Origin: an uncultured Burkholderiales bacterium
Lineage (GTDB): Bacteria > Pseudomonadota > Gammaproteobacteria > Burkholderiales > Burkholderiaceae_C
Assembly (NCBI GenBank): GCA_903935585.1
Contig: CAIZSE010000102.1
Location: 1 to 51,920 of the forward strand
Length of the DNA stretch: 51,920 nucleotides
Direction: 5' to 3'
Below the pieces are notes generated by a model. The model was not told where the DNA came from. It was given only the letters and a program-made list of their open reading frames with translations, and searched no databases. Of this stretch, positions 13,197 to 28,064 are shown piece after piece. A program made the translations under genes and the position numbers. Within the stretch, counting starts at the first letter, position 1. Each line of letters opens with the position of its first letter.

Positions 13197-13988
13197 TTGT
13201 TCAAACTCACCAGCCTTAACCTGAACGGCATTCGTTCTGCTTCGACCAAAGGGCTCGAAGCCTGGTTGGCGCAAGCCAGGCCCGATTGTATTTGTGTGCA
13301 AGAAGTCAAAGCCCAGGCCGCTGACGTGGCCGGTAAATTCGAAGCCTTGGGGGGCCTGAAAGGCCATTTCCAGTTCGCCGAAAAGAAGGGCTATTCGGGC
13401 GTCGGCGTTTACACCCGCCACGAACCCAGCGATGTGGTGGTGGGCTTTGATGGTGGAGAGTTCGACGCCGAAGGTCGTTATGTGGAGTTGCGCTTTGACA
13501 CCCCCGCACGCAAGCTGTCCATCATCAGCAGCTATTTCCCCAGTGGCTCGTCGGGGCCTGAACGGCAAGAAGCCAAGTTCCGTTTTCTGGACAAGATGTA
13601 CCCCCACCTCATGGGTCTCAAGGCCGAGCGGGAGTTCATTGTGTGCAGCGACGTGAACATCGCGCACCAGCAAGCCGACCTGAAAAACTGGCGCAGCAAC
13701 CAAAAGAACAGTGGTTTTCTGCCGCAAGAGCGCGCCTGGATGACCCAGCTCACGACCGAGGGGGGTGTGGTTGATGTCTACCGCCACTTGAAGCCTGACA
13801 CCACGGAGGCTTGCTACACCTGGTGGAGCAACCGGGGCCAGGCCTATGCCAAAAACGTGGGTTGGCGCCTCGACTACCACCTGGCCACCCCTGCCCTGGC
13901 AGACAAAGCCCGAAGTGAGTCCATTTACAAGGATGAAAAGTTCTCCGACCATGCACCCATCACGGTCGAATACGACCTGAATTTTTGA
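13197..13988 (+). CDS. xth: Exodeoxyribonuclease III
   Basis: This AP endonuclease/3'-5' exonuclease of about 263 residues acts in base-excision repair. Active-site segments are visible: LTSLNLNGIRSA at the N-terminus, VQEVKAQ with the metal-binding glutamate, SDVNIAHQQADLKNW, and the closing FSDHAPI with the catalytic Asp-His. Two starts are possible. ATG 13185 shares its bases with the pyrE start codon on the other strand. TTG 13197 gives the family-typical FKLTSLNLNG beginning and has GGGGA about 5 nt upstream, so I prefer it. Confidence 0.92.
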   Translation: MFKLTSLNLNGIRSASTKGLEAWLAQARPDCICVQEVKAQAADVAGKFEALGGLKGHFQFAEKKGYSGVGVYTRHEPSDVVVGFDGGEFDAEGRYVELRFDTPARKLSIISSYFPSGSSGPERQEAKFRFLDKMYPHLMGLKAEREFIVCSDVNIAHQQADLKNWRSNQKNSGFLPQERAWMTQLTTEGGVVDVYRHLKPDTTEACYTWWSNRGQAYAKNVGWRLDYHLATPALADKARSESIYKDEKFSDHAPITVEYDLNF

Positions 13989-14106
13989 GCACCGATAAGC
14001 GGGAATAGAGTTCTGAACCAAAAAATAGAGTTTCCAAAACGCTTCTTGAGCTCGGTCCTTTTATAAAGTTTTCGCCGGGAAAAGGCGCCAAAAACAATGT
14101 CAATCG

Positions 14107-15087
14107 TCAGCTATTGACCGAAACAAAAGCATCGGCAAAGAAATTGGCGGCCGGCAGACCTTTTGTTTGTATGAAAGCCTCTCGGCAGGCCGAAACCATG
14201 AGTGGGGCACCGCAGACATAGGCCTGGTGGTCCGTCAGATTGGCGTGGTCAGCCAGCACGGCTTCGTGAACCAGCCCGGAACGACACCCAGCAGGAGGTG
14301 GACCATCTGACACCGTACCCACAAAATGGAAATTGGCGTGTCTTCGTTGCCATTTTTGAATCTGCTCCATCGCATAGAGCCCGTTCTCGTGGCGAGCGCC
14401 CCAGTAAAGTGTAAAACTCCGGTCCGGGTATTTGGGTAACGCCTCTTCGAGCAGCGACTGAATGGGGGCGAATCCGGTTCCCCCGGCCACTAAAACCACA
14501 GGTAATGCGCCCTCGCGAAGGTAGAAGTCACCAAAAGGCAATTCAAGCTCAACAGTTTGTCCGGCCTGCATCGTGGCAAGAATGCGCTCTCCAAAAATGC
14601 TGCCAGGCAGAACGCGCACCTGCAACTGGGCACCGTCATTGGCCTTGGGCGAGTTGGCCATTGAGAAGCTGCGCGGCTGCTCCCCTTCCATCAGCACATG
14701 CAGGTACTGGCCAGCCTTGAAAGGGATGCGTACGCCCGCAGGGAAGCGAAGGTCGACGATGCAAACGTCATCGGCCACCAGGCGTTTGCGGAACAGGCGG
14801 GCCTGCACCTTGCGACGTTCACCTTTTTGCACGGGCTCTATCCGGTTAGCTGCAATTCTTAGATCGCTGTCCGCCCGGACCTGGCACAGCAGCACGGTCC
14901 CTCCTTGTGCCGCGGGTATGGTCTGGCCCTCCAGAACAGTGACGCGGCAAGATTCGCAGCTGCCGCGTCGGCATGAATGAGGCAGCTCCCATCCGGCAGA
15001 TGAGGCCGCGTCCAGCAGTGTCAGCCCTCCAGCACAGTCAAAGCTTGCTGCAACTTTGCCCCCAATTTCAACGGTACAAGTGGTCAT
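14107..15087 (-). CDS. tphA1: Terephthalate dioxygenase reductase-like (2Fe-2S, FAD)
   Basis: This 326-residue electron-transfer protein has an N-terminal plant-type ferredoxin with C39, C44, C47 and C68 as cluster ligands. It is followed by a ferredoxin-NADP reductase module with the flavin motif PRSFSMANSP and the nicotinamide motif LVAGGTGFAPI. It passes electrons from NAD(P)H to the Rieske oxygenase encoded upstream. It is last in the set A2-A3-B-A1, the order of the Comamonas terephthalate operon, and its start overlaps the previous stop as ATGA. The substrate assignment rests on the whole set. It could also serve a related dicarboxylate dioxygenase. Confidence 0.82.
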   Translation of the reverse strand: MTTCTVEIGGKVAASFDCAGGLTLLDAASSAGWELPHSCRRGSCESCRVTVLEGQTIPAAQGGTVLLCQVRADSDLRIAANRIEPVQKGERRKVQARLFRKRLVADDVCIVDLRFPAGVRIPFKAGQYLHVLMEGEQPRSFSMANSPKANDGAQLQVRVLPGSIFGERILATMQAGQTVELELPFGDFYLREGALPVVLVAGGTGFAPIQSLLEEALPKYPDRSFTLYWGARHENGLYAMEQIQKWQRRHANFHFVGTVSDGPPPAGCRSGLVHEAVLADHANLTDHQAYVCGAPLMVSACREAFIQTKGLPAANFFADAFVSVNS

Positions 15088-16046
15088 GAACAGGCCCGGG
15101 ACAATAGCTTGAGCGTTGCTGTCATGGCAGATGCATCGGCACTTCCTTTGCCTGCAAGGTTGAAAGCCGCGCCGTGCCCCACACTTGCAAAAAGTAGCGG
15201 AACACCGGCCACAAGCGCTGTCGCTCCCTTGGGGCTGAGCATCTTCACGGCAATATGCCCCTGGTCGTGCAGCATGGCCACATAAGCGTCGTGCAGGCCC
15301 TCGGATAAAGCCAGATCGGCACCAACCGGGCCATCCACGTGCCAGCCTAGCGCTTGCATTGCAAGAACCGCAGGCTTGGTGATGCGTTCGTCATCGTTGC
15401 CAAAAAGACCATTTTCTCCTGCATGCGGGTTGATGCCCAAGACGCAAAGCCTCGGCTGAGCGATACCAAGCCGCAGCAGCACGTCGCGCGCCGCTTGAGC
15501 TGCTGCTTGCACCAATGCTGGCGTTAATCGGTCGACAGCTTGGGTCACGCTCTCATGCAGCGTTGCGTGCACGACCCGAAGTCCTTTGGCTTCAAGCATC
15601 AGAAAGGCGTGATCGCGAGGGGTCTGCGTGCAGTCAGCTACCAAGCCGCTGTAGCCAGAAAAGGCGATACCGGCAGCGTTAACCGCCGTTTCACTGTGTG
15701 GCGCCGCAGCAATCGCATGCACATGCCCAGAACGCACCAGCCCCACCGCCTGCCTGACGTAGGCAACAGTGGCAGATCCGGCCGCCGCACTCACGAGGCC
15801 TGGATGCCAGTCTGATGGGACCAAAGCCGCTGCGTTGTGCACGTCAAATGCATCGCGCGCGTGATGCTCAACGCCGAGGAGGTCAATGGTGTGATCGATG
15901 ATGAAATCCTCAGCCACCAGCAACGACCGCACCCCACTTTCAGCGAAAAGCGCAATGGCTGCACGCACGGCAATCTCGGGACCGATTCCGTTCGGATCTC
16001 CCACCGTGACCGCGATGCGCGGCAGGTTTTTGCTGCCAGCTGTCAT
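15084..16046 (-). CDS. tphB: PdxA-family dihydrodiol dehydrogenase (TphB-like)
   Basis: This 320-residue protein belongs to the PdxA family, with AVTVGDPNGIGPEI at the N-terminus, GINPHAGENGLFG, and LHDQGHIAVKML carrying a metal-ligand histidine. PdxA itself acts in vitamin B6 synthesis. A gene sitting between the oxygenase beta subunit and the reductase, however, matches TphB, which oxidises and decarboxylates the cis-dihydrodiol of terephthalate to protocatechuate. Both ends overlap the neighbouring genes by four bases (ATGA), so it is translationally coupled in the operon. Confidence 0.82.
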   Translation of the reverse strand: MTAGSKNLPRIAVTVGDPNGIGPEIAVRAAIALFAESGVRSLLVAEDFIIDHTIDLLGVEHHARDAFDVHNAAALVPSDWHPGLVSAAAGSATVAYVRQAVGLVRSGHVHAIAAAPHSETAVNAAGIAFSGYSGLVADCTQTPRDHAFLMLEAKGLRVVHATLHESVTQAVDRLTPALVQAAAQAARDVLLRLGIAQPRLCVLGINPHAGENGLFGNDDERITKPAVLAMQALGWHVDGPVGADLALSEGLHDAYVAMLHDQGHIAVKMLSPKGATALVAGVPLLFASVGHGAAFNLAGKGSADASAMTATLKLLSRACS

Positions 16047-16504
16047 AGAGGTAAAGCCAAAAGCGTATCGATGCGGTGGCTGTCGCACACCACGTCACGG
16101 CGACTAAAGCGCAGTGAGTTTCCGCCCTCGTGCACGATGCGGTCCAGGTAGCGTCCGCTTGCAAATACCGCTGTCTCGCCGGTGCGCATGGTCCGCAACA
16201 CAGCAAAGCCAGTCTCCACCACGGCGCTGCTGCCATCGGATTCACGCAGCCGCGGCAGGCCCACAAGATGGCGGTAAGTGTGCCGTTCAAAGATATTGGC
16301 CTTGCGCAGTGACAGCACGCGGTCTGCCAGCATCTGGCGTGAATCGCAGTACACCACGCCGGCCTCGTAGCCGCGTGAGTGGTTGTGCGCTGTGGTTATT
16401 CGGTAAAAACAGTCCTCGGTGAAGAAGGATGGCCAGTCTTCAAGCCGACCATCGTCGATGGCGGCCGCATAGTCGGCGTTGAGCTCAATGATTTTTTCGC
16501 GCAT
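16043..16504 (-). CDS. tphA3: Ring-hydroxylating dioxygenase beta subunit
   Basis: This 153-residue protein is the small subunit of a Rieske oxygenase and has the NTF2/SnoaL-like fold. Family segments are ELNADYAAAIDDGRLEDWPSFF, the DSRQMLADRVLSLRKANIFERH core, and the FASGRYLDRIV strand. Beta subunits stabilise the alpha3-beta3 complex and do not carry the metal centres. It starts three bases after the alpha subunit stop. Length and position equal those of TphA3. Confidence 0.88.
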   Translation of the reverse strand: MREKIIELNADYAAAIDDGRLEDWPSFFTEDCFYRITTAHNHSRGYEAGVVYCDSRQMLADRVLSLRKANIFERHTYRHLVGLPRLRESDGSSAVVETGFAVLRTMRTGETAVFASGRYLDRIVHEGGNSLRFSRRDVVCDSHRIDTLLALPL

Positions 16505-16507
16505 GAC

Positions 16508-17755
16508 TTAGCGTTCCATAAGATGGCGGTACGCGCGCCAGAACCCGCGTATCGACGCCTCGGTAGCCCGAAAGTCTTGGCTCTGCGTTCCGTCTCCCCC
16601 CAACTCCATGACCGAATCAAGCGATCCTGCTGCGGCGATGCCGCGCTGCACAAAGCCGCCCACAGCACCATCTTCCATGGAGACATAACCCCCAGGCCCG
16701 ACCAGATTGGCTTGCTTCAAGCGCAAGAGGCGCATCTCCCGCGAGTCATCGGCATAGCCAAGGTAAGTCCAATTCAGATCGGTGCTGGCAACGCCCGTGG
16801 GCAGGATTTGGCGAACCGCAATGCAGTTGTGGATCTGCTGCAGCACAAAGCCTGGAAAAACGCTCAGGATCTGCAGGATCACACCATCCCCAATTTCGTC
16901 CACTGTCTTGAGCATCGACATATCGCCAAGAGTCAGATCCTGATTTTCTGAACGGATGGCTTGCTGGGTATAAGCGTTATCCATGCCGTCGACCATGCGG
17001 GCCAGTGTGGCGCTTGCGTGGTTCCCCCCCTCCTCACTGATGGAGACGCCGCCTTCTTGCGTCAGTCGGGTGATGCCGAAGGTGGCAAAAAACGTGTGCA
17101 ACAGGCTCGCATGGTAGGTGTCGCGAACATTTTCCGCATAGAGCTTCCAGTTGTTGGGAAGTGTCTGCGTGAAACGTCCGATGATTTCTACGGGCTTGAA
17201 AAGTACGCGCTCCATGCGCGAGCACACGGCATCGCCCAGATACTCCTCAAGCGGCGGCACATCATCGTGCAGGCTGGCAAATACAAGCCCACAGAACACG
17301 GTGGTGCGCAGCTTGCGTGGCCCATGATCTTCGCGGCAGAAGGTGTCGGGCATTCCCCCCTTGCCATTAACGCCCTTCTCAAATGCAACACCTCGCAGAT
17401 TTCCCTGAAGGTCGTACCGCCAGGCGTGATAAACGCAACTGTGCTCAGTGGCGTTGCCGAAGTCTTCCAAACAAATCAATGCGCCTCGGTGCGCGCAACG
17501 GTTCTCGAAAGCATAGATCTCCCCATCGGTATCGCGCGACAGCACCACCGGCATGCTTCCGGCAAATGTGGTCTTAAAGTCCCCAGGCAAAGGGACCTCT
17601 GCTTCCAGGCCCAGATAGTTCCATACCGGGCCTTCAAATACGCGCGCCTGCTCTGCGGACAGAATGTCGCTTCGCTGGAACACAGCGTACGGGACGCGTG
17701 TGTAATTGCCTGGGTGCCAGTGCACCGGTGCTTCATGCGTTGTAGATGTTGTCAT
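16508..17755 (-). CDS. tphA2: Ring-hydroxylating dioxygenase alpha subunit (TphA2-like)
   Basis: This 415-residue oxygenase component has Rieske ligands C87, H89, C107 and H110 and a mononuclear iron site of D212, H215 and H220 in [12 protein letters not shown]. It dihydroxylates an aromatic acid using electrons from the reductase. Segments such as [14 protein letters not shown] and [13 protein letters not shown] strongly resemble the terephthalate 1,2-dioxygenase large subunit as I remember it. A GTG at 17782 could add nine residues and would overlap the RidA gene by eight bases; I prefer ATG 17755. Related dicarboxylates remain possible substrates. Confidence 0.85.
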
Positions 17756-17774
17756 GGCTTTTGCCGTTCCAGGT

Positions 17775-18167
17775 TCATTCACCGGTCAGTGCGGTGAGGT
17801 CACATTGCAAGTGCATGCCAGTCGGCAGGCGGTCGGTGGTCACCACATGGCGAGCGGGCCGCGACGAGGGGTCCGAAAACAACCGCAACCAGTGGGCATT
17901 GATCATTGCACGCGGGAAATCGGGTGCGACAAAAAAGTTCATCTTGAGGACGCTGTCCCATGATGCGCCGCCTGCCTCTAATAAGCGCTCGGCAACGGAA
18001 AACATCAGGTCGCACTGAGCCTGTTCACCTTGGGCCAACTTTTGGGTCTGTGGGTCCATCCCGAAGAGAGTGCCGCTGATGAGCAGCCCCCCGCCAACAC
18101 AGGCAGCAGGCACTGGGTTGTCGCCATGGCCAAAGCCTTCGACATAGATGCTTTTGCGCTTCATCAT
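17775..18167 (-). CDS. RidA/YjgF family protein
   Basis: This 130-residue protein belongs to the RidA family, whose members form trimers and hydrolyse enamine/imine intermediates; some are 2-aminomuconate deaminases. The key arginine is present in SRPARHVV. The following strand reads MHLQCDL, where archetypal RidA has two glutamates at the matching positions, so the pocket is altered. ATG 18167 overlaps the preceding stop as ATGA. Sitting between the aldolase and oxygenase genes, it could deaminate a ring-cleavage product. Other roles for this family are common, so this is inference. Confidence 0.85.
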
Positions 18168-18919
18168 GACTTGATCCCCTTCACAAGTTCTGTTGCTGCG
18201 CGGCCGAAGATGGAGGCATCGTTGCTCACCATCACGAAAGAGAAGCCGCGGGCCTGACTCCGTTTGGCCGCTGCAGCATCGCCCACCGCCGTTCCGCATG
18301 GGATGCCGCGCTTCATGCATGAGGCAAGTAGCCCATCGACAAGGGCTTCATTTTTTGGATCAGAAGGCGGGCGGCCACTGACCAGAGACAAGTCGCCCAT
18401 TCCTACAAATGCTGCGTTCACACCATCGATGTCCAGGATGGCGTCAGCGCCCTCCAGCGCATCAGGGTCTTCCAGTTGGACGACGCGCAGGACGCGCTCG
18501 TCACCGGCCTTCACGTAGTCCGGGATGGTCCGCTGCCCCCAACGCCCGGCCCTCGATGTGATGCCCATGCCGCGGGTGCCGCGTGGGCTAAAGATCAAGG
18601 GATCCATGGCCTGACGGGCATGGTCCGCGCTGCGAATGCGGGGCACCAAAACGCCATCGGCGCCACTGTCGAGAACACGCTGCGCATCGGCGCCTGTCGC
18701 ATCAGGCAGCCTCACCAGTGCGACCATTCCCAGTCCCTGGGCGACCACGATGGTGCGGTACAGTGACTCGAAGGTATGGGGAGCATGTTCGGCATCGGCA
18801 ACGATGAAGTCAAAGCCGGCCCAAGCCAGCATTTCCAAAGTTTCCAGCGAGTCCAGCTTGGCCCACGTGCCTAGCAAGCAGGCACCGGGTTCCCGGACGC
18901 GGTCAAAAAAGTCAGGCAT
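18164..18919 (-). CDS. HpcH/HpaI family aldolase
   Basis: This 251-residue class II (metal-dependent) aldolase belongs to the citrate-lyase-beta/HpcH superfamily. Landmarks are GTWAKLDSLETLEMLAWAGFDF, VADAEHAPH, ADGVLVPRIRS, the SPRGTRGMG arginine loop and the VQLEDPDAL metal-binding glutamate. Such enzymes cleave 4-hydroxy-2-oxo acids to pyruvate and an aldehyde, the usual last step of meta-cleavage. ATG 18919 has AGGTGA eight bases upstream. A GTG at 18931 directly after the previous stop is the alternative. Confidence 0.87.
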   Translation of the reverse strand: MPDFFDRVREPGACLLGTWAKLDSLETLEMLAWAGFDFIVADAEHAPHTFESLYRTIVVAQGLGMVALVRLPDATGADAQRVLDSGADGVLVPRIRSADHARQAMDPLIFSPRGTRGMGITSRAGRWGQRTIPDYVKAGDERVLRVVQLEDPDALEGADAILDIDGVNAAFVGMGDLSLVSGRPPSDPKNEALVDGLLASCMKRGIPCGTAVGDAAAAKRSQARGFSFVMVSNDASIFGRAATELVKGIKS

Positions 18920-18931
18920 ATTGCAATTCAC

Positions 18932-19816
18932 CTAGGCGATGATGCCAGATGAGGCCGAGATCGAAGCCAGCGACTCAGGCAACGGATACTCGTCGGCGTT
19001 GCGAACCAACCCTGGCTTGAGGGAGAAATCTCCGCGCGGCGGCGAGAAGACGTCTACCAGGCGTGTGCGGTCACTGCCCACTGCCTGCGTCGTGTGAATC
19101 GCGTTGGGTGGGATCACGATCAGGGATGGGCTGTTCACCGCGCCGTGTTCGTCCTCACGCCAAGTGGTCATGTCAGGCGTCCAGGGGTAGCGAAGGTGGT
19201 GGACATAACTGCCGGCCAGGGACAAAGAGCCTTGCTCAAAATCAGCATGTGAGTGCGGGGTCATTTTGCGCACATCGCGCGGCTTGGTCTGAGGCACGAA
19301 GATGTTGATCATCAGGTTTGTACTTCGGAACAGCCGCATGCTGTTGTCTGCACGGACGTAGTCAGCGAGCTTGTAGTGCCGCAGTTTGAAGCCCCCTACG
19401 GGATCTGGCCAGGCGATCATCGGTGCGACATGGGGTGCGCCATCGACATACTCGTCAGCGTTGTCTGCCGCAGCCATGATGTCTACAGCCAAATTGCTGA
19501 AAATTCGGTAGACCCATCCCTGCGAGGAAACCGTTACGCGGCTGTTCCCCGGTGGCAGGATGGTCAGCGAATCACCTTCGCAGGTGACGGCCTGGCTGCC
19601 GGATTCAATCCTCGCGCCTACCTGCTCGGGCAGCAGGAGCATGTATTCGTCAGGCTGACCGATGCGTTCGAGCACTGAGCCCGCCTGTGCCTGCGTTGCG
19701 ACAACGGCGAAGTTTGCAGAGCGTGTGACCCAGTGGCTCGTTCCGTCGGTGTCTTTGAGAGCGGCGGGTTCATCGTAGTAACGTGAACAGTGGGCAGGTT
19801 TGGTGGGCATTGTCAT
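18932..19816 (-). CDS. Cupin-like protein of unknown function
   Basis: The 294-residue protein shows two cupin-like halves. The C-terminal half has PHSHADFEQGSLSLAG (cupin motif 1, His-x-His-x3-Glu) and IPPNAIHTTQ (motif 2), so it probably binds a metal. There is no signal peptide. ATG 19816 has a strong AAAGGAG upstream. Its place among ring-cleavage genes suggests an isomerase, hydrolase or dioxygenase acting on a pathway intermediate. I do not recognise a characterised homologue and do not assign a reaction. Confidence 0.7.
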   Translation of the reverse strand: MTMPTKPAHCSRYYDEPAALKDTDGTSHWVTRSANFAVVATQAQAGSVLERIGQPDEYMLLLPEQVGARIESGSQAVTCEGDSLTILPPGNSRVTVSSQGWVYRIFSNLAVDIMAAADNADEYVDGAPHVAPMIAWPDPVGGFKLRHYKLADYVRADNSMRLFRSTNLMINIFVPQTKPRDVRKMTPHSHADFEQGSLSLAGSYVHHLRYPWTPDMTTWREDEHGAVNSPSLIVIPPNAIHTTQAVGSDRTRLVDVFSPPRGDFSLKPGLVRNADEYPLPESLASISASSGIIA

Positions 19817-19865
19817 GGATGTCTCCTTTATGTACCTTGAGGTCGTGATCTGTTGCGATGGGTGA

Positions 19866-20660
19866 TCAAGCGAGGTCGGCTGCGCGCAGGCCAAATCCAC
19901 GCAGGGCTGCGTCAAACATCAATTGGCCGCGGCGAGGACCGCCCGGCATTTCCCTGAAAGGCTTGGCCTGCAAAGGGATGGCATCCAGCACCGACTGGGG
20001 AACCTGGACATTCGGACCTGCCATGCTGTCACTGAGTACCTGCACTTCGCATGCACGTTGCAAGCACCACATGGTTGCAAACGCTTGGGGAATGTGCGGG
20101 CCGGCCACCAAAAGGCCATGATTGCGAAGGATCAGAACCTCCTTGTCCCCCAAACTTTGGACAATCCTGCCCTGTTCCGCCGTGTCCGTCGTGATGCCTT
20201 CAAAGTCGTGATAAGCCACTCGGCCAAACAGTTGGGCACTGTTGAAGTTGTCTGTGCGCAGCCCGCCCTGCTTGCAGGCAACGGCCATGCCGGCCGTGGT
20301 GTGCGTGTGCATCACACACTGCGCATCAGGCCGGTGACTGTGCACGGCGCTGTGAATCACAAAACCCGCCACATTGACACTGTAGGGCGTGGGTCGAACG
20401 GGATGGCCGTCCAAGTCGATTCGAATCAAGTTGGACGCCGTGACCTCGCTGTAAAGCAAACCGAACGGATTGATCAGGTAGTGGTGGTCAGGCCCCTGCA
20501 GGCGCGCGGAGATGTGGTTAAAAATGCTTTCAGTCCACCCCAAATGGTGAAACAACCTGTAGCAAGCTGCAAGTTCCAGACGCAGAGCCCACTCGTCTTC
20601 GCCCATGCCACCGGGACAAGGAGGCTGGCCTTGAGGTGAATTAAATGACATGACATCCAT
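19866..20660 (-). CDS. Class II aldolase/adducin family protein
   Basis: This 264-residue protein has the class II aldolase/adducin fold with zinc ligands in MHTHTTAG and RNHGLLVAG, and the early FNHISAR motif. Members are fuculose-phosphate-type aldolases, epimerases, or decarboxylases of aromatic-pathway intermediates. GGAGA six to seven bases upstream supports ATG 20660. The operon also holds an HpcH-type aldolase, so two different C-C lyases are available and this one may act on a hydroxy acid intermediate. Confidence 0.87.
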   Translation of the reverse strand: MDVMSFNSPQGQPPCPGGMGEDEWALRLELAACYRLFHHLGWTESIFNHISARLQGPDHHYLINPFGLLYSEVTASNLIRIDLDGHPVRPTPYSVNVAGFVIHSAVHSHRPDAQCVMHTHTTAGMAVACKQGGLRTDNFNSAQLFGRVAYHDFEGITTDTAEQGRIVQSLGDKEVLILRNHGLLVAGPHIPQAFATMWCLQRACEVQVLSDSMAGPNVQVPQSVLDAIPLQAKPFREMPGGPRRGQLMFDAALRGFGLRAADLA

Positions 20661-20697
20661 GAGATTCTCCGATCAGGGTTGCTGGGTTGCCAAGAGG

Positions 20698-21630
20698 TCA
20701 ATACCCAATGCGGGTATCGACGAGGTGCAAAAGAGGTTCACCGCGCCGTGCGCGCAACAGGTTCTCGGCCAACTGGGAGGCCACAGCCTTTGCGGAGGGC
20801 AACGACGCAACGTGTGGTGTGATCAGCAGATTGGGCACGGCCCACAGGGGGTCATCGGTGGGCATCGGCTCTCGGCCCTGCACGTCCAGCGCAGCACCTG
20901 CCAGCTGACCACTTTGCAGGGCCTGTGCAAGATCCTGCTCCACCACATGGAGCCCGCGGGCAACATTGATGAAGAAAGCACCACGGGGCAGCTTGGCGAG
21001 CAAGTTTGCGTTAACGACAGAGGTGGTCTCGGGTGTCAGGGGCAACAAGCAGACCAGAACCTGGCAACGCCCCACCATGCTGAGCAGCCCGGCGGATCCG
21101 CTGAAGGATTCGACACTTGGAATTTTTTTGGGACTGCGGCTCCAGCCACACACGTTAAAACCCAAAGCCAACAGCGCAGCGGCCACGACCTGGCCTGATT
21201 CGCCCAAACCCATCAAGCCCACCGTCACCGAAGACGGACTGGGGATTGGATGGCGCCTCCATACTTTGTCGCGCTGCTGGGCATCGTACAAAGCCTGCTG
21301 ACGGACATGCCTTAGGACCATGGCGCAGACGTATTGCGCAATTTGCTGGTTCTGCTGAACATCCACCGTGCGGGTAAGAGGCAGCGATGGTGGCATCGCT
21401 GGGCCGATGATTTTGTCCACACCTGCAGCCGAGGCAGCCAGGAACTTGATCGAGGGAAAGGCATCGAGCATGCCCGGGCTGAGCCGCCACAAAAGAATGG
21501 CTTCAACATTGTTCGCATGGGCGAGGGCAGCTTCCACGTCCATGAAAAATTCTTCGCCAGGCATCAACCGCCGCAACTCTTCAACAAAGGGTTGAGGCGG
21601 CTGTGGATGGGTAAGGACCAAGACTGCCAT
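20698..21630 (-). CDS. D-2-hydroxyacid dehydrogenase (NAD-binding)
   Basis: This 310-residue protein has the D-isomer 2-hydroxyacid dehydrogenase layout: an N- and C-terminal substrate domain around a Rossmann domain with GLMGLGESG. Catalytic elements are FINVARG (arginine), ALDVQGREPMP (glutamate) and ITPHVAS (histidine). It resembles glyoxylate/hydroxypyruvate reductases of the GhrA type. In this operon it may interconvert a 2-oxo and a 2-hydroxy acid formed after ring cleavage. The substrate is not evident. Confidence 0.87.
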   Translation of the reverse strand: MAVLVLTHPQPPQPFVEELRRLMPGEEFFMDVEAALAHANNVEAILLWRLSPGMLDAFPSIKFLAASAAGVDKIIGPAMPPSLPLTRTVDVQQNQQIAQYVCAMVLRHVRQQALYDAQQRDKVWRRHPIPSPSSVTVGLMGLGESGQVVAAALLALGFNVCGWSRSPKKIPSVESFSGSAGLLSMVGRCQVLVCLLPLTPETTSVVNANLLAKLPRGAFFINVARGLHVVEQDLAQALQSGQLAGAALDVQGREPMPTDDPLWAVPNLLITPHVASLPSAKAVASQLAENLLRARRGEPLLHLVDTRIGY

Positions 21631-21638
21631 AACGGGCC

Positions 21639-22169
21639 TTAATGCAATTCAACCGAGTCTGTGGAGGCCGACATCCGTCCCGCATGAAAGATCAGTGCAT
21701 CGCCCCCAGTCGCAGTGTAATGCTGCACCCGACCAAGGAACATGATGTGGTCGCCCGCATCATATTGGGCGTGGGTGGCGCACTCAAACGCAGCCAGCGT
21801 GCCCTCGATCAGCGGCAAGCCGTATTGGCTAGGCGCCAGCGGCACACCCTCAAACCGGTCGCCTTCCATGCGCTGCGCAAAACGCCGGCATAACGCGTGC
21901 TGGTCCGAGGACAGGACATTGATCGCAAAGCTGCCGGCATTGCAAAACAGTTCCAGGCTGGCCGAGCGCTTGCTCAGGCTCCACAACACCAAAGGCGGCT
22001 CCAGTGAAACGGATGTAAATGAGTTGGCGGTCAAGCCAATGGGCTGACCTTGTGGCCCAATCGTGGTGACGATGGTGACCCCGGTTGCGAACTGGCCAAG
22101 CGCAGCGCGAAGTGCCGCTGGGTCGGTTTTAGCCCCAGCGCAAGGCGTGCGAGTGCTTGCATCGTTCAT
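21639..22169 (-). CDS. Flavin reductase (HpaC-like)
   Basis: This 176-residue NAD(P)H:flavin oxidoreductase supplies free reduced flavin to a partner monooxygenase. Family motifs are ALGQFATGVTIVTT, GLTANSFTSVSLEPPLVLWSL and the GDHIMFLGRV strand near the end. ATG 22169 is 13 nt after the monooxygenase stop; longer in-frame starts lie inside that gene. Adjacency to the HpaB-like gene makes the partnership clear. Confidence 0.88.
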   Translation of the reverse strand: MNDASTRTPCAGAKTDPAALRAALGQFATGVTIVTTIGPQGQPIGLTANSFTSVSLEPPLVLWSLSKRSASLELFCNAGSFAINVLSSDQHALCRRFAQRMEGDRFEGVPLAPSQYGLPLIEGTLAAFECATHAQYDAGDHIMFLGRVQHYTATGGDALIFHAGRMSASTDSVELH

Positions 22170-22182
22170 GACAAGCCCGGCA

Positions 22183-23685
22183 TCAAGCAGTGAGTCTGTG
22201 GGAACCAGCGGTCCCGCCGTCCCAAGCATCGTTGCGCCGCTCGATGTCTTCCAAGATACCGTCCATGCGCTCCTGAAAAGGTTTTTTGTCGTAGAGGTTG
22301 AACAGCATGCCTGCCAAACGAACCGGGTCGCCTGTGTAATAGCGCTCATAAAGTTGCTGCCGACCGGCAAACGCCGACATCGATGCGTCAAAGGCAAGAC
22401 GGAACAGCTTGATGCGCTCGGGTGCATCGCTGTTGGCAGACTGATAGTAGCGATCCACCAGATCAGCGCCTGTGCCACGCAGTTCTGCGTAGGATGGAAC
22501 TGCCACCAGTCCGCTCGCACCCAGCAGTTGGATGATCTCCTGCATGCGAATGAACATTTTTGGAAAGCCCATTCGGACCACCCATAAGGCGTTGGCATCC
22601 GGCACCAGCGTACCGAATGGCGAGACCGTGGCATTGACTTCGCTGGCCGTCAGTACGGAGCGCAGCGTTTCGCGAAACACCATGATTTCTGACAACATGC
22701 CCTGAACGTGAAGGTGCTCGTCAATCTTTGTCGAGCGCGCAATTCTCAATGCCAATGACAGCATGAACTCGGTCTTGGCCAAAGCGCGCACTGCCGACTG
22801 CGTAGCCGCTTGTGGACCGGATGAGGTTTTTGAGTGGACCTGGTTGCATGCTTCGACATTGCGATAAAGAAATACACGCTCCCATGGCACGAAGGCATTG
22901 TCGAATACGACCACTGCATCAGTCTCGTCCATGCGCATGGACAGCGGAAAGTCCGCATAGCATGCGTTCGCACCCGGCAGCAGTGTGGGACGAGAAATCC
23001 AGGTCACTCCCGGCGTTGCAATCGGGATGCCGCATCCAAACGCATAGTCGGCTGCCTCGGGTGAAGGGGTCAGATACGTGGATGGAAAAACCAGCACCTC
23101 ATTGGAGAAAGCTGCCAGCGTGGACACCGTGCGGGCGCCGGAGATGTAAATGCCGCGGTCATCTTCCTTGACGACCTTGGCGGCCAGATCCTTCTCCTGC
23201 TTTTCAACAGTGCGCGAGCGATCTACCTGTGGGTTGACCAGCACGTGGGTCATGACGATGTCGTTTTCACGGCAATGTTCTGCCCAATTGCGCATGTTGT
23301 CACCGCAACCCTTGTGGGCCTGCTCGAAAAACGGATGAGCTGTGCCCAATGCAGAAACCATGACGTTCATGAAATCGGGGCTTCGTCCCATCATGCCGTA
23401 GGTTGCGTCAGCCCATGTTTTGAGACCTGCACGGCGGCGGGTGAGGTCTTCCTGTGTGCGAGGAGCCATATGGCTTACGCCCACTTTATGCCCTGTTGTC
23501 GGGGAAACGTAGGTCAGTTTTTCTGCTTCAGCGCCGTGCTGCATGTCCAGTAACTCCGCGATGGTGTGCGCAGCGCCGCTGAAACGCGGGTCGCGAGTCA
23601 CGTCAGTCACCAGTTCCCCGTCAATCAGGATTCTGCGGCCATCGCGCAAAGACTCCAGGAAAGCTTTTCCGGTTTTCATACCCAT
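22183..23685 (-). CDS. HpaB-family FADH2-dependent monooxygenase
   Basis: This 500-residue protein belongs to the 4-hydroxyphenylacetate 3-monooxygenase (HpaB/TftD) family, which hydroxylates phenols ortho to the hydroxyl using reduced flavin. Seen are GKAFLESLRDGR at the start, the ALGTAHPFFEQAH region, DRGIYISGARTVSTLA, and DNAFVPWERVFLY. GGAG is eight bases before ATG 23685. It heads the long minus-strand operon and is divergent from the IclR gene. It is not next to the hpa operon at 46-52 kb, and its gene partners imply a different substrate from 4-hydroxyphenylacetate. Confidence 0.87.
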   Translation of the reverse strand: MGMKTGKAFLESLRDGRRILIDGELVTDVTRDPRFSGAAHTIAELLDMQHGAEAEKLTYVSPTTGHKVGVSHMAPRTQEDLTRRRAGLKTWADATYGMMGRSPDFMNVMVSALGTAHPFFEQAHKGCGDNMRNWAEHCRENDIVMTHVLVNPQVDRSRTVEKQEKDLAAKVVKEDDRGIYISGARTVSTLAAFSNEVLVFPSTYLTPSPEAADYAFGCGIPIATPGVTWISRPTLLPGANACYADFPLSMRMDETDAVVVFDNAFVPWERVFLYRNVEACNQVHSKTSSGPQAATQSAVRALAKTEFMLSLALRIARSTKIDEHLHVQGMLSEIMVFRETLRSVLTASEVNATVSPFGTLVPDANALWVVRMGFPKMFIRMQEIIQLLGASGLVAVPSYAELRGTGADLVDRYYQSANSDAPERIKLFRLAFDASMSAFAGRQQLYERYYTGDPVRLAGMLFNLYDKKPFQERMDGILEDIERRNDAWDGGTAGSHRLTA

Positions 23686-23720
23686 GGTTATTGCTCCAAT
23701 GTAAGGTGAACTTCACCAGA

Positions 23721-23751
23721 CGTTTCGATATGCGGTACAGTGTATCCGTGA
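23721..23751 (+). promoter_or_regulatory. Putative IclR operator, site 1
   Basis: The 31-bp sequence begins CGTTTCGAT and contains GTATCCGTGA. It matches site 2 at 27905-27935 in 24 of 31 positions. It lies in the 143-bp space between the divergent hpaB-like and iclR starts, where an IclR-type regulator would be expected to bind. Overlapping GTATC/GATAC inverted repeats run to 23757. Confidence 0.5.
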
Positions 23752-23828
23752 GAGATACGGTTGTCACCGGTAAAAAGCGAGATATATACTGGTTAAAACC
23801 CTATGACCACCTTCTGATTGCCTTGTCT

Positions 23829-24635
23829 ATGACCGATCACATTGAAGACACGCTGCCGGCCGGCTCCAACCAATCAGTCACCATATCGGCCCGCATCCTG
23901 GGTGAACTGGCTTCCAGCGCCAACCCCTTGGGCGTCAGTGAAATCGCACGTCGTCTTGGTGAGTCGAAAGCCCGTGTTTTTCGGCACCTGGCGACCATGA
24001 AGCAATGCGGTTTGGTCAGTCAGGAGAACGCCGGTGATGCCTACCAACTGGGCTGGAACATTTACAGGCTGGGCGTTGCGGCGGCGAATCAATTCGGATT
24101 GACCCGGGTGGCGCAGCGCCATATGACCAAGCTTCGCGACAACACGCAGGAGACGATTGCGCTGGCTATTCCGGCCAGTGGCGATGCGCTCGTGGTGGGT
24201 TCTGTACAAAGCGAGCGCCAGGTCGCCATCTCGATCAAGCATGGTGTCGTGATCCCCGCCAACTCGTCGGCACTTGGACGCGTTGTGCTTGCGTTCGCGA
24301 ACGAAGAGACGCAGGAAAACATTCTTTCGCGCCCTCTGCTGTCGTTTGGCGAAAAGTCGATCGTGGATGCAGACAAGCTGCGCAGTCGTTTGGCCTTCAT
24401 TTGCAAGAACTATTACGAGATCGCGATCAATGAAAACGGCTTTGGCATCGCCACACTGGCTGCACCGGTGTTTGATGCCAACAACAAGCTCGCCGCGGCA
24501 GTTGCACTCGTGGGCTCCCCATTTAACATCTCCCTCACCCCCGATAAAAAGCTGGTGACCGCTTTGCACGAATGTGCCGCAGCCATTTCGTCAGAACTCA
24601 ATTCGACCGCATGGAATGAATGGCGGCTGAAATAA
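23829..24635 (+). CDS. IclR family transcriptional regulator
   Basis: This 268-residue regulator has an N-terminal winged helix (ILGELASSANPLGVSEIARRLGESKARVFRHL) and a C-terminal IclR effector domain with SALGRVVLAF and GFGIATLAAPVFD. IclR proteins commonly sense aromatic acids or intermediates. The open frame extends upstream to 23691, but that stretch contains the putative operator, so ATG 23829 is the likely start. It sits between the two minus-strand operons. A short stem at 24635-24656 at the convergent junction may act as a weak terminator. Confidence 0.88.
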   Translation: MTDHIEDTLPAGSNQSVTISARILGELASSANPLGVSEIARRLGESKARVFRHLATMKQCGLVSQENAGDAYQLGWNIYRLGVAAANQFGLTRVAQRHMTKLRDNTQETIALAIPASGDALVVGSVQSERQVAISIKHGVVIPANSSALGRVVLAFANEETQENILSRPLLSFGEKSIVDADKLRSRLAFICKNYYEIAINENGFGIATLAAPVFDANNKLAAAVALVGSPFNISLTPDKKLVTALHECAAAISSELNSTAWNEWRLK

Positions 24636-24654
24636 ACCGGCAGCTGCTGCCTGG

Positions 24655-25635
24655 TTAAGCCGTGCCAAATCGGTTGCGAAGCTTGCCAATACCCTGAATC
24701 TCCAGTTCAATTTCATCACCAGCCTGTGGGTATCGGCCGAGCTCAAACCCGCAACCATTGCCCACTGTGCCCGACCCGATAAATTCACCTGCGTACAGGG
24801 TTTCGGATGCAGACACATGGGCGATGATGTCCTCAAAGCGATGGTGCATGGTGCTGCTGTTGCCACGCGACCATTCAATTCCGTTGACGCGTGCCACCAT
24901 CTCCAGTGCGTAGGGTTCGGTCAACTCATCAGCCGTCACGATGCACGGCCCGATGATGTTGCCCGTGTCAAAGTCTTTGCCCTTGGCAGGCCCCAGCATG
25001 CAGGCCATCTCATCGGCTTGGGCATCACGGGCCGAAACATCGTTGTAGATGGTGTAGCCAAAAATGTGTTCGTGCGCGTTTGCTGCCGAGATGTCACGCC
25101 CGGTCTTGCCAATGAAGATGCCCAGTTCCAGTTCGTAGTCCAGCATTTGGCTGTATGCGGGCCATTGAACGGTCTCGCCATCACCGATGACAGTGAATCG
25201 GTTGCACTTGTAATACACGGGTTGGCGAAACCACACAGGCGGAATCTCCAATGCACCAGAAGACGCCAGCGCAAGCAACTGTTCCTCGGCTTGTGGGTGG
25301 TTGCGCAGGCGCATGCGCGCGCTGGCGCGCTTGGCTTGGCGAAGATGTAACTCGAAAGCCAAAGCATCGCGCATCTGAATGGGTCGGGGCACGGGTGACA
25401 GAAGGCGAACACTGGAGGTTGGCCGAATCGCGTTGTCAGGACTGGCCTCGACCAGAGTGCGAGCGAGGTCCAGGCCCCTTGCGCCTGATTCGATGAGACT
25501 TTGCATGGACGCAAACGCATCGGTAGGCCGACCTTGCGCAGCGGCCGCGCTGGCCAGGTCGATGAACTGGCGGTCGCCGTCTATCCAGGCGCCGGTTCGG
25601 GCTTCCTGGCCATCGTGAAATGTGATGAGTCGCAT
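24655..25635 (-). CDS. Fumarylacetoacetate hydrolase family protein
   Basis: This 326-residue member of the FAH superfamily has YELELGIFIGKTGRDI with the metal-binding glutamates, GYTIYNDVSARDAQ, and the SGTVGNGCGFELGR loop. These enzymes hydrolyse, hydrate or decarboxylate ring-cleavage products. ATG 25635 starts a typical MRLITF beginning eight bases after the ligB stop. It is the last gene of the operon that starts with the Bug receptor. The long middle segment makes it more like true fumarylacetoacetase-type hydrolases than HpaG. Confidence 0.87.
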   Translation of the reverse strand: MRLITFHDGQEARTGAWIDGDRQFIDLASAAAAQGRPTDAFASMQSLIESGARGLDLARTLVEASPDNAIRPTSSVRLLSPVPRPIQMRDALAFELHLRQAKRASARMRLRNHPQAEEQLLALASSGALEIPPVWFRQPVYYKCNRFTVIGDGETVQWPAYSQMLDYELELGIFIGKTGRDISAANAHEHIFGYTIYNDVSARDAQADEMACMLGPAKGKDFDTGNIIGPCIVTADELTEPYALEMVARVNGIEWSRGNSSTMHHRFEDIIAHVSASETLYAGEFIGSGTVGNGCGFELGRYPQAGDEIELEIQGIGKLRNRFGTA

Positions 25636-25643
25636 GGGTGCAC

Positions 25644-26477
25644 TTAAAAAGTTTGTAGAGCCAGCAGGCCGTAGCCGGTGAGCATGGGTGCGTCGTAATA
25701 GCGCTGAATCCTTGTTGGCTTGCCAGAACCCAGAGCACCGCGCATCGTGAGCCAAACCATCATCTCGACCGACTCGGCCCCCCCGCGTTCTATAAGTTCG
25801 TCATGAGTGATGGTGGCCAGCAGGCTGGGGTTTTCTTCGAGAAGGTCCAGAAAATGCTTATCCCATGCGGGATTTGTGAAGCCGAAGTCCGGTCCGTGAA
25901 GCTGATGGGACAGCCCACCAGTGGCCATGACCACCACGCGCTCGTCGCAAGGCATGGCGTTGATCACTCGGCCGATCGCCTGGCCAAGTTTCCAGCAACG
26001 CATCGGGGTGGGCATAGGGTCGAGCACCACGTTCACTGCAAGAGGAACCACACGCATCGACCACGGAGGCGTATCCACCAAAGGCAAAACAGAAAGAATG
26101 CCGTGATCCAAAGCCATCTCTTGGCACAGAGACAGATCGAATTCCTGCTCGACCAGGCCACGCGCCAACTGCCAGGCCAGCGCGCTGTGACCAGGGACTG
26201 GCTTGAGTGGGCGCGGCGCCTTGCCCTCATTCGCCAACGGGTGCAGGTTTCCAGTCCCCAGCGCGAAAGAAGGGTAGTTGTCAAACTGGAAGTTGTTGAG
26301 GTGGTCGTTGTAAACCACCACCAAGGTATCTGCCCTGACATCACTCAGCCACTGACGAACGGGTCCATAGGCATCGAAGAAAGGCTTCCATGCTGGCTGA
26401 TTGCCATGCCCCGCATCCCATGCGAAGGCTATGGATGGCGCGTGCGAAGAACCTATGCCGCCAACAACATGTGCCAT
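25644..26477 (-). CDS. ligB: LigB-type extradiol dioxygenase catalytic subunit
   Basis: This 277-residue catalytic subunit is of the protocatechuate 4,5-dioxygenase class (type III extradiol). It begins GGIGSSHAPS with an iron-ligand histidine and continues with VVVYNDHLNNF and ATGGLSHQLHGPDFGF. It cleaves a catechol-type or aminophenol-type ring next to the hydroxyl using non-haem Fe(II). Its ATG shares one base with the ligA stop (TAATG). The exact substrate cannot be told; protocatechuate, gallate and 2-aminophenol enzymes all belong here. Confidence 0.87.
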   Translation of the reverse strand: MAHVVGGIGSSHAPSIAFAWDAGHGNQPAWKPFFDAYGPVRQWLSDVRADTLVVVYNDHLNNFQFDNYPSFALGTGNLHPLANEGKAPRPLKPVPGHSALAWQLARGLVEQEFDLSLCQEMALDHGILSVLPLVDTPPWSMRVVPLAVNVVLDPMPTPMRCWKLGQAIGRVINAMPCDERVVVMATGGLSHQLHGPDFGFTNPAWDKHFLDLLEENPSLLATITHDELIERGGAESVEMMVWLTMRGALGSGKPTRIQRYYDAPMLTGYGLLALQTF

Positions 26478-26845
26478 TAGCCGCGCCCTTTTTCAGCCAA
26501 AAACTCTTTAGTCGATTGACCGCGCATGGCAGCACCAATCTCCAGCAGCGTTGCACCGAACACGTAGCCCGATTTGGCGATCGCGTAAATGTTGACGCCG
26601 GCAAGCAGCAAACCTGCATAGTCACGATGGCGGACCAGTTCACGCTCAGACGGGGCAAGGCCCCACGCCTGCATGGCGGCTTCCTCGTCGATCAAATAGG
26701 CCTCTCGATTCTCGCGCTGCGATATGTGGATAAGGAATCGGTTCAGCCTTAATGCGCCTTGCGCCAATTCACCACGGTAGCGTGCTGCGCTCTGAAGGTT
26801 TGCAGTCGGCCCGAAGCGGCTGCTGCTTGCGCCAAGGTCCACCAT
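26477..26845 (-). CDS. ligA: LigA-type extradiol dioxygenase small subunit
   Basis: This protein of about 122 residues is the alpha subunit that caps the LigB active site. Core segments are LNRFLIHISQRENREAYLIDEEAAMQAWGL and RDYAGLLLAGVNIYAIAKSGYVFG. ATG 26845 lies five bases after the receptor stop. GTG 26854, which overlaps that stop as GTGA, is the alternative. A frame continuing further upstream runs inside the receptor gene and is unlikely. Confidence 0.82.
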   Translation of the reverse strand: MVDLGASSSRFGPTANLQSAARYRGELAQGALRLNRFLIHISQRENREAYLIDEEAAMQAWGLAPSERELVRHRDYAGLLLAGVNIYAIAKSGYVFGATLLEIGAAMRGQSTKEFLAEKGRG

Positions 26846-26850
26846 TTCAA

Positions 26851-27882
26851 TCACTTGGCAGGCGCTGGCGGAAGTTCCATTTGCAGATTGAAGCGGTCGA
26901 CGATACGTTTTTCCACTGGCAGTTGTTTGCGTGCCCATTCGGTAAAAGGCGCGCTGGCGATGAAGTCAGGCTTTTGGTAATTGCGGTCCAGGAATTCAAG
27001 AATTTCTTTTTCTTCAAGGATGCGCTTGAAGGTTTGCTCCAGCAACGCAACGTGAGCTGGGTTCATCCCGCGAGGGCCACCGACACCGACAATGGCATTG
27101 ATCTCAACGGGGTAGCCCAACTCTCGCAAGGTTGGAATTTGCGTTAGCCTTGGGTGGCGTGCGCCGTTCAGCCAGGCAACGAGCCGCAGCTTGCCATCCT
27201 GGACAAAGGGCATCGCACTGCCACCTGCCACGATCATGTCAATGTCACCGCGAATGAGCTGAAGGACAGATTCGTTGTCTCCTTTGTAGGGCACATGGAG
27301 CAACTGGATCCCTGCCAATCGGGAGAAATCTTCCATGGGCACATGGGCAAGACCGCCATGGCCAAAGGCTGTTCCATACTTCACATCGTCGGGTTTCGCC
27401 TTGGCTGCATTGATGATGTCCTGCACTGTCTTGTAAGGGGAGGTGGCGGACACGTAAAGGCCGAACCAAGAGCTCGTAATGCCTGAAACCCAGGTAAAAC
27501 CCTCTACCGGCTGATACGGTAAGCCATTGCGCAGTTGGTGATGCAAGGACAGGTGCGATCGCCCCACGATGCCGATGGTGTAGCCATCGGGCTCGGCCAT
27601 GGCTATCGAATTGGCAGCGACACCCCGACCCGGGCGATTTTCCAGCACCATCGGCTGGCCAGTTATCGCCTGAAACCGCTCGCCAATGCGCCGAAATGTC
27701 ACATCAGTGATCCCGCCTGCAGGAAATGAAAGCACCATCTTGACCGGTCTGGCGGGGTAAGTCTGAGCGTGCGCCGCCCAAGGCACCAGACTGAGCCACG
27801 CAGCAAATGCCAAAAACGGGACACAGCGAACGAGGCGCTGTGAGAAAGCAGTCAAGCAAGCAAGTTTCACAGTTGTCTCCAT
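26851..27882 (-). CDS. Bug/TctC-family tripartite tricarboxylate receptor
   Basis: This 343-residue periplasmic solute receptor has a long signal peptide ending AAHAQTYPARPVK. It shows the Bug signatures SFPAGGITDV, VLENRPGRG and LHVPYKGDN. TphC, the terephthalate receptor of Comamonas, is of this family. It is first in the ligAB-FAH operon, so it probably delivers the pathway substrate. No TctA or TctB membrane genes are present, as is usual for orphan Bug receptors in Burkholderiales. Putative operator site 2 lies just upstream of its start. Confidence 0.9.
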   Translation of the reverse strand: METTVKLACLTAFSQRLVRCVPFLAFAAWLSLVPWAAHAQTYPARPVKMVLSFPAGGITDVTFRRIGERFQAITGQPMVLENRPGRGVAANSIAMAEPDGYTIGIVGRSHLSLHHQLRNGLPYQPVEGFTWVSGITSSWFGLYVSATSPYKTVQDIINAAKAKPDDVKYGTAFGHGGLAHVPMEDFSRLAGIQLLHVPYKGDNESVLQLIRGDIDMIVAGGSAMPFVQDGKLRLVAWLNGARHPRLTQIPTLRELGYPVEINAIVGVGGPRGMNPAHVALLEQTFKRILEEKEILEFLDRNYQKPDFIASAPFTEWARKQLPVEKRIVDRFNLQMELPPAPAK

Positions 27883-27904
27883 TTGACCTTGGGGTCAATT
27901 TTAT

Positions 27905-27935
27905 CGTTTCGATCAGCGATACGCCGTATCTGTGA
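27905..27935 (+). promoter_or_regulatory. Putative IclR operator, site 2
   Basis: The 31-bp sequence starts CGTTTCGAT and contains a perfect 13-bp palindrome, GATACGCCGTATC, at 27918-27930. It sits 22 bp upstream of the minus-strand receptor start, in position to block or activate its promoter. It matches sites 1 and 3 in 24 and 22 of 31 positions. Confidence 0.5.
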
Positions 27936-28033
27936 TTGAGAATAAGCGTGTTTATTGCGAATGTCAACAAGAAGACTTTCCCTGGTTGGGCTGAGTCGGA
28001 GTGCGCTTCCTCAAAGCTACTCAGGAATGAATG

Positions 28034-28064
28034 TGTTTCGATAAACGAGACGCCGCATCGACGC
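28034..28064 (+). promoter_or_regulatory. Putative IclR operator, site 3
   Basis: The sequence starts TGTTTCGATAAACGAGACG and matches site 2 in 22 of 31 positions. GTTT-CGAT-AAAC within it is a small inverted repeat. It lies about 175 bp upstream of the plus-strand receptor gene. It is the weakest of the three sites. Confidence 0.4.

Follow-up and report, generated by a model that had tools for sequence, protein, structure and literature searches.

The terephthalate (TPA) genes of Comamonas (KF-1; Protein Data Bank (PDB) entry 7q04) stand in the order A2-A3-B-A1 and underlie the known conversion of TPA to protocatechuate (PCA). The homoprotocatechuate (hpa) pathway uses HpaBC, a class III dioxygenase, a FAH-fold enzyme and an HpaI aldolase, and HsaA-type and HpaB-type oxygenases are two-component flavin hydroxylases of phenols. 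Here we describe a gene island at positions 13986..29319 (no strand) of a 51,920-nucleotide stretch, hereafter the window, from an uncultured Burkholderiales bacterium (assembly GCA_903935585.1, contig CAIZSE010000102.1, positions 1 to 51,920, forward strand), in which a variant tph set is joined to a second aromatic module with HpaB-type, LigAB-type, cupin, HpcH-type and RidA-family genes. The gene anatomy of the island, read from family matches, is well supported. On the strength of a tight gene run and an altered dioxygenase pocket, we consider it evenly balanced whether the island encodes one pathway for an aromatic carboxylate that would not be, or not only be, plain terephthalate.

Architecture of the island

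The eleven genes from hpaB to tphA1 stand on the minus strand in one tight run with no gap above about 50 bp; the HpcH-RidA, A3-TphB and TphB-A1 junctions overlap by a few bases, and RidA and tphA2 lie about 20 bp apart or overlap. Because of these overlaps and short gaps, the hpaB-to-tphA1 genes look like one transcription unit. The run begins with an HpaB-type flavin hydroxylase (22183..23685; PF11794/PF03241) and a flavin reductase (21639..22169; PF01613 from residue 180 of an over-long open reading frame (ORF) reaching to 22634), followed by a D-2-hydroxyacid dehydrogenase (20698..21630; PF02826; GhrA-like, under the cut-off), a class II aldolase/adducin family protein of the PRK07044 subfamily (19866..20660; PF00596; NF005451 323 bits, cut-off 207), a bicupin (18932..19816), an HpcH/HpaI-type aldolase (18164..18931; PF03328; 119 bits to PDB 4b5s) and a RidA-family protein (17775..18167; PF01042). 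The tph set then follows with the TphA2-type Rieske alpha subunit (16508..17755, alternative GTG start at 17782), the TphA3-type beta subunit (16043..16504; PF00866), the TphB-type dihydrodiol dehydrogenase of the PdxA family (15084..16046; PF04166) and the TphA1-type reductase (14107..15087; Fer2, FAD and NAD domains).

A second minus-strand run of four genes encodes Bug receptor 1 (26851..27882; PF03401), a LigA-type subunit (26477..26845; PF07746), the LigB-type catalytic subunit of a class III extradiol dioxygenase (25644..26477; PF02900; NF009902 327.6, cut-off 299) and a FAH-family enzyme (24655..25635; PF01557). A divergent IclR-family regulator gene on the plus strand (about 23832..24635, listed ORF from 23691; PF01614/PF09339) separates the two runs, and a second Bug receptor is encoded on the plus strand at 28239..29234 (PF03401). 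Gene identities come from Pfam and NCBIfam scans of 20 window ORFs; the listed ORFs of the flavin reductase, RidA, LigA, FAH, TphB and cupin are over-long, and their starts were picked from junction sequences. An earlier note on this DNA had named a complete A2-A3-B-A1 set in the same minus-strand run as an HpaBC-like monooxygenase, RidA, a cupin, aldolases and a 2-hydroxyacid dehydrogenase, and a second operon with LigAB, a FAH hydrolase and a Bug receptor. All of these are recovered by Pfam or NCBIfam matches at or near where it had placed them, and the IclR gene and the second Bug receptor extend its gene list within the same block.

The variant tph set

With A2, A3, B and A1 in one cluster, and in the same order as in Comamonas, the island tph set is, as far as gene content and similarity tell, a variant of the known terephthalate-degrading enzyme set. 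The alpha subunit is 62% identical to the Comamonas protein and scores 593 bits against PDB 7vju and 592 bits against 7q04, which is deposited as terephthalate 1,2-dioxygenase. The top PDB matches of TphB are 8zj3 and its kin (about 251 bits), deposited as PdxA, and 4aty, deposited as terephthalate 1,2-cis-dihydrodiol dehydrogenase, scores 232 bits. Unlike the Comamonas arrangement, the island tph set stands behind seven other genes, and its A2 lacks a Bug gene directly upstream, whereas 23 of 24 tph loci in the family carry one beside A2.

The more telling difference lies in the pocket. According to the available part of PMC9060491, R309 is found cluster-wide and N224, S243 and R390 occur only in terephthalate dioxygenases (TPADOs), for which these last three residues are proposed as a search motif. 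The eight residues that the paper names all map to the PDB chain at one offset. The island enzyme keeps the metal ligands, S243, I290, R309 and R390, but has Thr at the Asn224 position. Among 40 TphA2-like proteins, comprising the window protein and others at least about 50% identical to it, position 224 is Asn in 37, Ser in one (L194) and Thr in two, namely the window protein and that of Variovorax sp. WDL1. Relative to 30 reference rows, these two alpha subunits also share V234I, V242A and M379L, of which V242A stands beside S243. This N224T pocket, together with V242A, suggests that the enzyme accepts a para group other than a bare carboxylate, either instead of it or in addition.

In the second of two trees, from which L002 and L003 were left out, the window and WDL1 alpha subunits group together with support 99/96, and L106 joins the pair at 94/93. 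In the L106 set, whose run is given under L140 (L140:4956-14982), genes for a cytochrome P450, a ferredoxin reductase, a short-chain dehydrogenase/reductase (SDR), an aldehyde dehydrogenase (ALDH) and DctP stand between A1 and tphB, giving the order tphA2-A3-A1-P450-ferredoxin reductase-SDR-ALDH-DctP-tphB; this run may serve to oxidise a methyl group on the way to TPA. Judged by their gene neighbours, all three rows of this branch are hybrid loci.

The WDL1 locus lies on plasmid 4 (NZ_LR594692.1; of 75 plasmid records, 40 were listed and 7 fetched) and shares with the island Thr224, A1 (61% identity), A2 (64%), A3 (50%), B (52%), IclR (45%) and a Bug receptor beside the variant tph genes (62% to island Bug2), its reductase, IclR and Bug2 being the nearest relatives found. 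In six other family genomes listed at E<=1e-75, the A1 reductase reaches at most 49%. The WDL1 locus differs in its order A1-A2-A3-B, which continues into genes for a hydrolase resembling HsaD/BphD (172 bits, cut-off 400) and a VOC dioxygenase resembling BphC (331, cut-off 366), and it lacks the HpaB, LigAB, RidA and cupin genes of the island at that place.

LigAB and HpaB

Up to E 10, LigB has five PDB matches: two gallate enzymes, one PCA enzyme, one dihydroxyphenylpropionate enzyme and TK2203. Gallate dioxygenase DesB scores 222 bits, PCA LigB 202 and the dihydroxyphenylpropionate enzyme 73. Aminophenol dioxygenases are represented in the PDB, and none acting on 2-aminophenol is among these matches, so that LigB is not closest to that type. 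The available part of PMC3962378 gives the gallate contacts of DesB as His124, His192, Thr267, Thr13, Glu377 and Tyr391. Island LigB keeps His124, His192 and Thr267; the Thr13 position is Ala in the island and in 7/7 LigB proteins of the related module loci described below, the gallate-specific Glu377 position is Ala in island LigA (six Gly and one Ala in module LigA), and the Tyr391 position is Gly in the island and in 7/7 module loci. Glu377 is retained as Glu in L149, L150 and L153. With the Glu377 position changed and the gallate equivalog cut-off not reached (293.9 vs 412), a gallate dioxygenase assignment was rejected. The PCA enzyme that this genome encodes on contig C127 is likewise without the DesB gallate residues, and for this reason PCA-like substrates are still possible for island LigAB.

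Island LigAB is, however, not taken as the PCA enzyme of this genome: its LigA falls below the protocatechuate 4,5-dioxygenase alpha cut-off (TIGR02792, 45.7 vs 108.6), whereas the C127 alpha subunit passes with 232 and has LigK, above its cut-off, adjacent. Since C127 holds a passing LigAB beside LigK, TPA should need no island LigAB: conversion to PCA and opening of its ring are covered without it, and the rest of the route is likely covered too. The C127 hydrolase taken as LigI-like matched only a 4-sulfomuconolactone hydrolase model, under the cut-off, and the hydratase and dehydrogenase of the C127 PCA route were not identified in the scans made. The earlier note had argued that the extra genes imply another or longer route; they should indeed be unneeded for plain TPA.

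In a gene-order search (E<=1e-70), none of 398 other genomes has a LigB above 49% identity. On plasmids, 70 records match LigB (20 listed), all below 60%. The genome itself has PF02900 in four places, namely C127, the window HpaD, island LigB and C88, where the gene resembles 4,5-DOPA dioxygenase under the cut-off. The intradiol family PF00775 occurs in three places in the genome.

The HpaB-type hydroxylase (357 bits to PDB 2yyg) stays under the equivalog cut-offs (TIGR02309 464.8 vs 480.2; TIGR02310 254.9 vs 885.2). Just after its SPD motif, the window protein, like that of module locus L028, has Phe where 2yyg and 9lft have Tyr, a position which we take to have a role in phenol binding. The island resembles the hpa pathway in its HpaBC, class III dioxygenase, FAH-fold and HpaI aldolase kinds, and differs in having no HpaE and in that the window holds its own hpa cluster elsewhere. 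That separate homoprotocatechuate cluster, at 46631-51732, has high GC content at third codon positions (GC3); HpaG-C, HpaE, HpaD and HpaH are above their cut-offs and HpaG-N is under. Island HpaB was rejected as a part of it, as it lies in a different run, scores under the HpaB cut-offs and stands with the module in L028.

RidA and the bicupin

With E. coli RidA numbering, which we take to carry over to the island protein, the equivalent of Arg105 is present in 7/7 RidA copies (the window and six module loci), and the equivalent of Glu120 is Gln in all seven. In the available text of PMC4433059, Arg105 is tied to imine hydrolysis and Glu120 is said to be kept in all Rid subfamilies, and removal of that Glu is reported to have little effect in one RidA. 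Imine chemistry is thus possible for the island RidA and not specifically indicated; of the deaminase role that the earlier note had considered, the kept Arg speaks for and the Gln against.

The cupin has no Pfam match even at E 1. Its model (pLDDT 93.6; 47 sequences) is a bicupin, and Foldseek agrees. A C-terminal metal-type site comprises H188, H190, E194 and H241 (alignment numbering), with the three His invariant and the Glu nearly so. The 50 Foldseek rows shown (6-15% identity) include oxalate decarboxylases, a DUF861 protein, ureidoglycine aminohydrolase, quercetinases, BacB and AerE, the last two being isomerases. The cupin may be either an isomerase or an aminohydrolase; by analogy, our guess would be a double-bond isomerase.

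The module in other genomes

Relatives were found with an alignment of seven cupins, which left out L009 (internal stop), L012 and L013 (36-37% matches), and the named cupin loci are the best 80 of at least 533 confirmed relatives; a larger cupin alignment covers 46 of the 80, L072 being left out for a stop. Cupin, HpcH, LigA and LigB occur together in seven of these best 80 loci (L024-L029 and L032), with 52-65% (cupin), 52-64% (HpcH) and 55-63% (LigB) identity to the island. RidA (45-55%) is present in six of the seven; in the remaining one, L026, the contig stops within ligB. The hosts are a Rhodoferax metagenome-assembled genome (MAG), a Burkholderiales SCN18 MAG with two copies (L025 and L028), Advenella mandrilli, and Burkholderiaceae, Betaproteobacteria and Alcaligenaceae MAGs. 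No description of this module or of its gene combination was found in the literature, and a paracetamol paper retrieved for the combination describes no such cluster in its available part. The module is conserved and apparently undescribed, in the sense that literature searches did not find it.

An HsaA-type flavin hydroxylase gene stands beside the module in L024, L025, L026, L027 and L032, the copies of the last four being 70-82% identical to that of L024; the family assignment is based on L024 and L025. L028 instead shares with the window an HpaB-type enzyme (56%), IclR (39%) and Bug1 (39%), and the L029 contig begins at the cupin, so that the hydroxylase slot falls outside it. A flavin reductase is present in five of the seven loci (L024, L025, L027, L029 and L032), with none seen in L028, and L024, L025 and L027 differ from the island in having a LysR neighbour. 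Because an HsaA-type or HpaB-type hydroxylase stands beside the module, the slot suggests phenol hydroxylation, by analogy probably ortho-hydroxylation. An adjacent FAH-family gene occurs in L024 alone and is a fumarylacetoacetase (TIGR01266, 524.8 vs 375.3).

Several further loci touch single members of the module. The cupin lies within 2.5 kb of an HpcH-type aldolase gene in 57 of the best 80 loci (L024-L103), mostly with other neighbours, and we know of no role for this widespread pair. The nearest relative of the island FAH (55%) is in L065 of Paraburkholderia sp. CNPSo 3274 (L065:8552-14937), where the FAH, cupin and HpcH genes are grouped with those of a BphC-like dioxygenase and a Rieske-type oxygenase; judging by these genes, a similar tail may serve another ring-cleavage enzyme there. 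Among the fetched loci, the class II aldolase has its best match (51%) in L157; at most 1.5 kb away lies a gene of the LigB family whose 437-aa frame is as long as a fused gallate dioxygenase.

Separate occurrence and acquisition of the block

The two parts of the island are found apart elsewhere. None of the best 80 cupin loci has tphA2 within 10 kb (200-bit match), and the seven module loci differ from the island in having no tph genes in the flanking DNA examined; L029 (4.4 kb) and L026 (9.1 kb) say little here, being short contigs. Conversely, tphA2 at about 58% identity or more occurs in 24 of 398 other family genomes (26 places, two of which, both in G277, were left out of the locus comparison), and no module gene lies within 1.5 kb of tph in any of the 24 loci, the view extending further for L106 and L127 only. 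Of 199 other genomes of the family, 8 carry a cupin homologue. As the cupin/HpcH/LigAB(RidA) block and the tph set occur apart (7/7 and 24/24), the island joins two modules, and the hybrid nature claimed by the earlier note is borne out. That note had also held that independent occurrence in related genomes would refute its reading; such independence is largely seen, yet here the two parts share one tight run, so that they need not be unrelated.

The block 13986-29319 was most likely acquired, given that the same site, between xth and a methyltransferase gene, is empty in 4/4 genus relatives fetched (of the 29 that gave an xth match). In L183, the nearest of the four, sequence matching window 7153-13985 (94.7%) is followed after about 75 bp by sequence matching 29320-30239 (88%). 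L184, L185 and L186 likewise have xth and the methyltransferase gene but no island, with one other ORF separating the two genes in L184. The order of both outer flanks in one genus relative led us to set aside an assembly chimera as rejected or weakened, although a join inside the block is possible. In 5/5 same-genus genomes, the alpha subunits reach only about 40% identity to that of the island tph set. The empty site, not base composition, carries this argument. GC3 is 0.60-0.70 in 17 island genes, 0.80-0.84 in AmpG, IlvE, RadA and the hpa genes and 0.78 in aceE elsewhere in the window, against a genome median of 0.771 (sd 0.068; 77 ORFs from five other stretches of the genome, chosen by a rule itself favouring high GC3). 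The flanking host genes are nearly as low (xth 0.71, methyltransferase gene 0.67), and for these two reasons GC3 is weak as an argument and was dropped as proof; loss of the island in the relatives is possible. The island ends show nothing beyond 7-bp matches, and a repeat search gave two short direct repeats, both inside genes, and no inverted repeats.

Beyond the island, L183 lacks the segment at window 30240-36307, which encodes MocR and a Liv-type ABC transporter; the apparent tail of the last gene is retained there, so this may be a deletion in L183 and not an insertion here. A degradative-type HMG-CoA reductase gene (36387-37664; TIGR00532 476 bits, cut-off 260) lies beside the ABC transporter.

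Substrate and pathway

For the module, the enzyme families suggest a first part in which a phenolic ring would be hydroxylated by a two-component flavin hydroxylase and then opened by the LigAB-type enzyme, after which the cupin, RidA and HpcH aldolase (here also FAH) would rearrange and cut the product. In the second part, the variant TphA2A3A1 would dioxygenate a 4-substituted benzoate at its carboxyl end, TphB would rearomatise the product, releasing CO2 and giving a 4-substituted catechol, and any protocatechuate formed would go to the PCA 4,5-dioxygenase cluster on C127. That the first part acts on one portion of the substrate and passes a 4-substituted benzoate to the second is a tentative and somewhat doubtful proposal. 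A phenolic ring bonded to a 4-carboxyphenyl unit (a biaryl or an aryl ketone) is an unlikely but concrete candidate: the module would hydroxylate and open the phenolic ring, FAH or HpcH would cut the link and free a terephthalate-type benzoate, and the variant tph set would finish it, with WDL1 following the same logic through BphC/BphD-type enzymes.

Several observations weigh against reading the island as one such pathway. The retention of S243, I290, R309 and R390 means that TPA may still be a substrate, and the window-WDL1 join in the tree is flagged with a long-branch warning. No second joint occurrence of the tph set and the module was found in the loci examined; in G056, one of the genomes with a cupin homologue, some 1.9 Mb separate the cupin gene from tphA2, and the island co-location may be recent and functionally loose. 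Neither the FAH nor the class II aldolase and 2-hydroxyacid dehydrogenase belong regularly to the module: the FAH has no 200-bit match in the seven module loci, and the other two, with no match there at E 1e-5, are unexplained in the proposed pathway.

It is fairly unlikely that a plain TPA operon has merely been swept together with a passenger, TphAB forming PCA for C127 to open while HpaB and LigAB serve an unrelated phenolic acid. Each part does occur without the other, the PCA 4,5-dioxygenase and LigK are available elsewhere in the genome, and most TPA-contact residues are kept; set against this, the eleven-gene run leaves no more than about 20 bp, or even an overlap, between RidA and tphA2, and the altered pocket is common to another hybrid locus, that of WDL1. 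An inverted order appears quite improbable: TphAB would act first on a 4-substituted benzoate to give a catechol, HpaB and the flavin reductase would add a third hydroxyl, and LigAB would cleave the triol in the manner of a gallate dioxygenase, a route that would need no aldehyde dehydrogenase and in which the FAH-fold enzyme, HpcH aldolase and a tautomerase would replace hydratase and aldolase. LigB scores higher with gallate dioxygenase (222 bits) than with the PCA enzyme (202), which fits this order, as does the lack of any aldehyde dehydrogenase in the island ORFs scanned, but the changes at the Glu377, Tyr391 and Thr13 positions and the missed equivalog cut-off (293.9 vs 412) make gallate itself unlikely.

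The earlier note had raised, as one hypothesis, a carboxylated aromatic with an amino or nitro substituent, for which LigAB would be the aminophenol dioxygenase and RidA a deaminase of the 2-aminomuconate type; this now appears very improbable. LigB is nearest to gallate and PCA enzymes, with no aminophenol dioxygenase among its PDB matches up to E 10. The 2-aminophenol route needs a semialdehyde dehydrogenase, and neither this enzyme nor a nitroreductase or amidase is among the island ORFs scanned. RidA accompanies the module in six of seven loci and retains the Arg of imine hydrolases, as given in the available part of PMC4433059; it also has Gln for Glu in 7/7 copies, though loss of that Glu had little effect in the one RidA reported there.

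Significance

TPA dioxygenase genes are used in work on the monomers of poly(ethylene terephthalate). The island and WDL1 sets keep two of the three motif residues N224, S243 and R390 in hybrid loci, and are for that reason natural test cases for the effect of residue 224 on substrate range. The module recurs in several betaproteobacterial genomes, and the island, by placing it beside a benzoate-type dioxygenase, yields a short list of substrates to test. If the reading of a two-part aromatic is true, a variant tph set beside a ring-opening module would represent a recurrent, undescribed pathway design.

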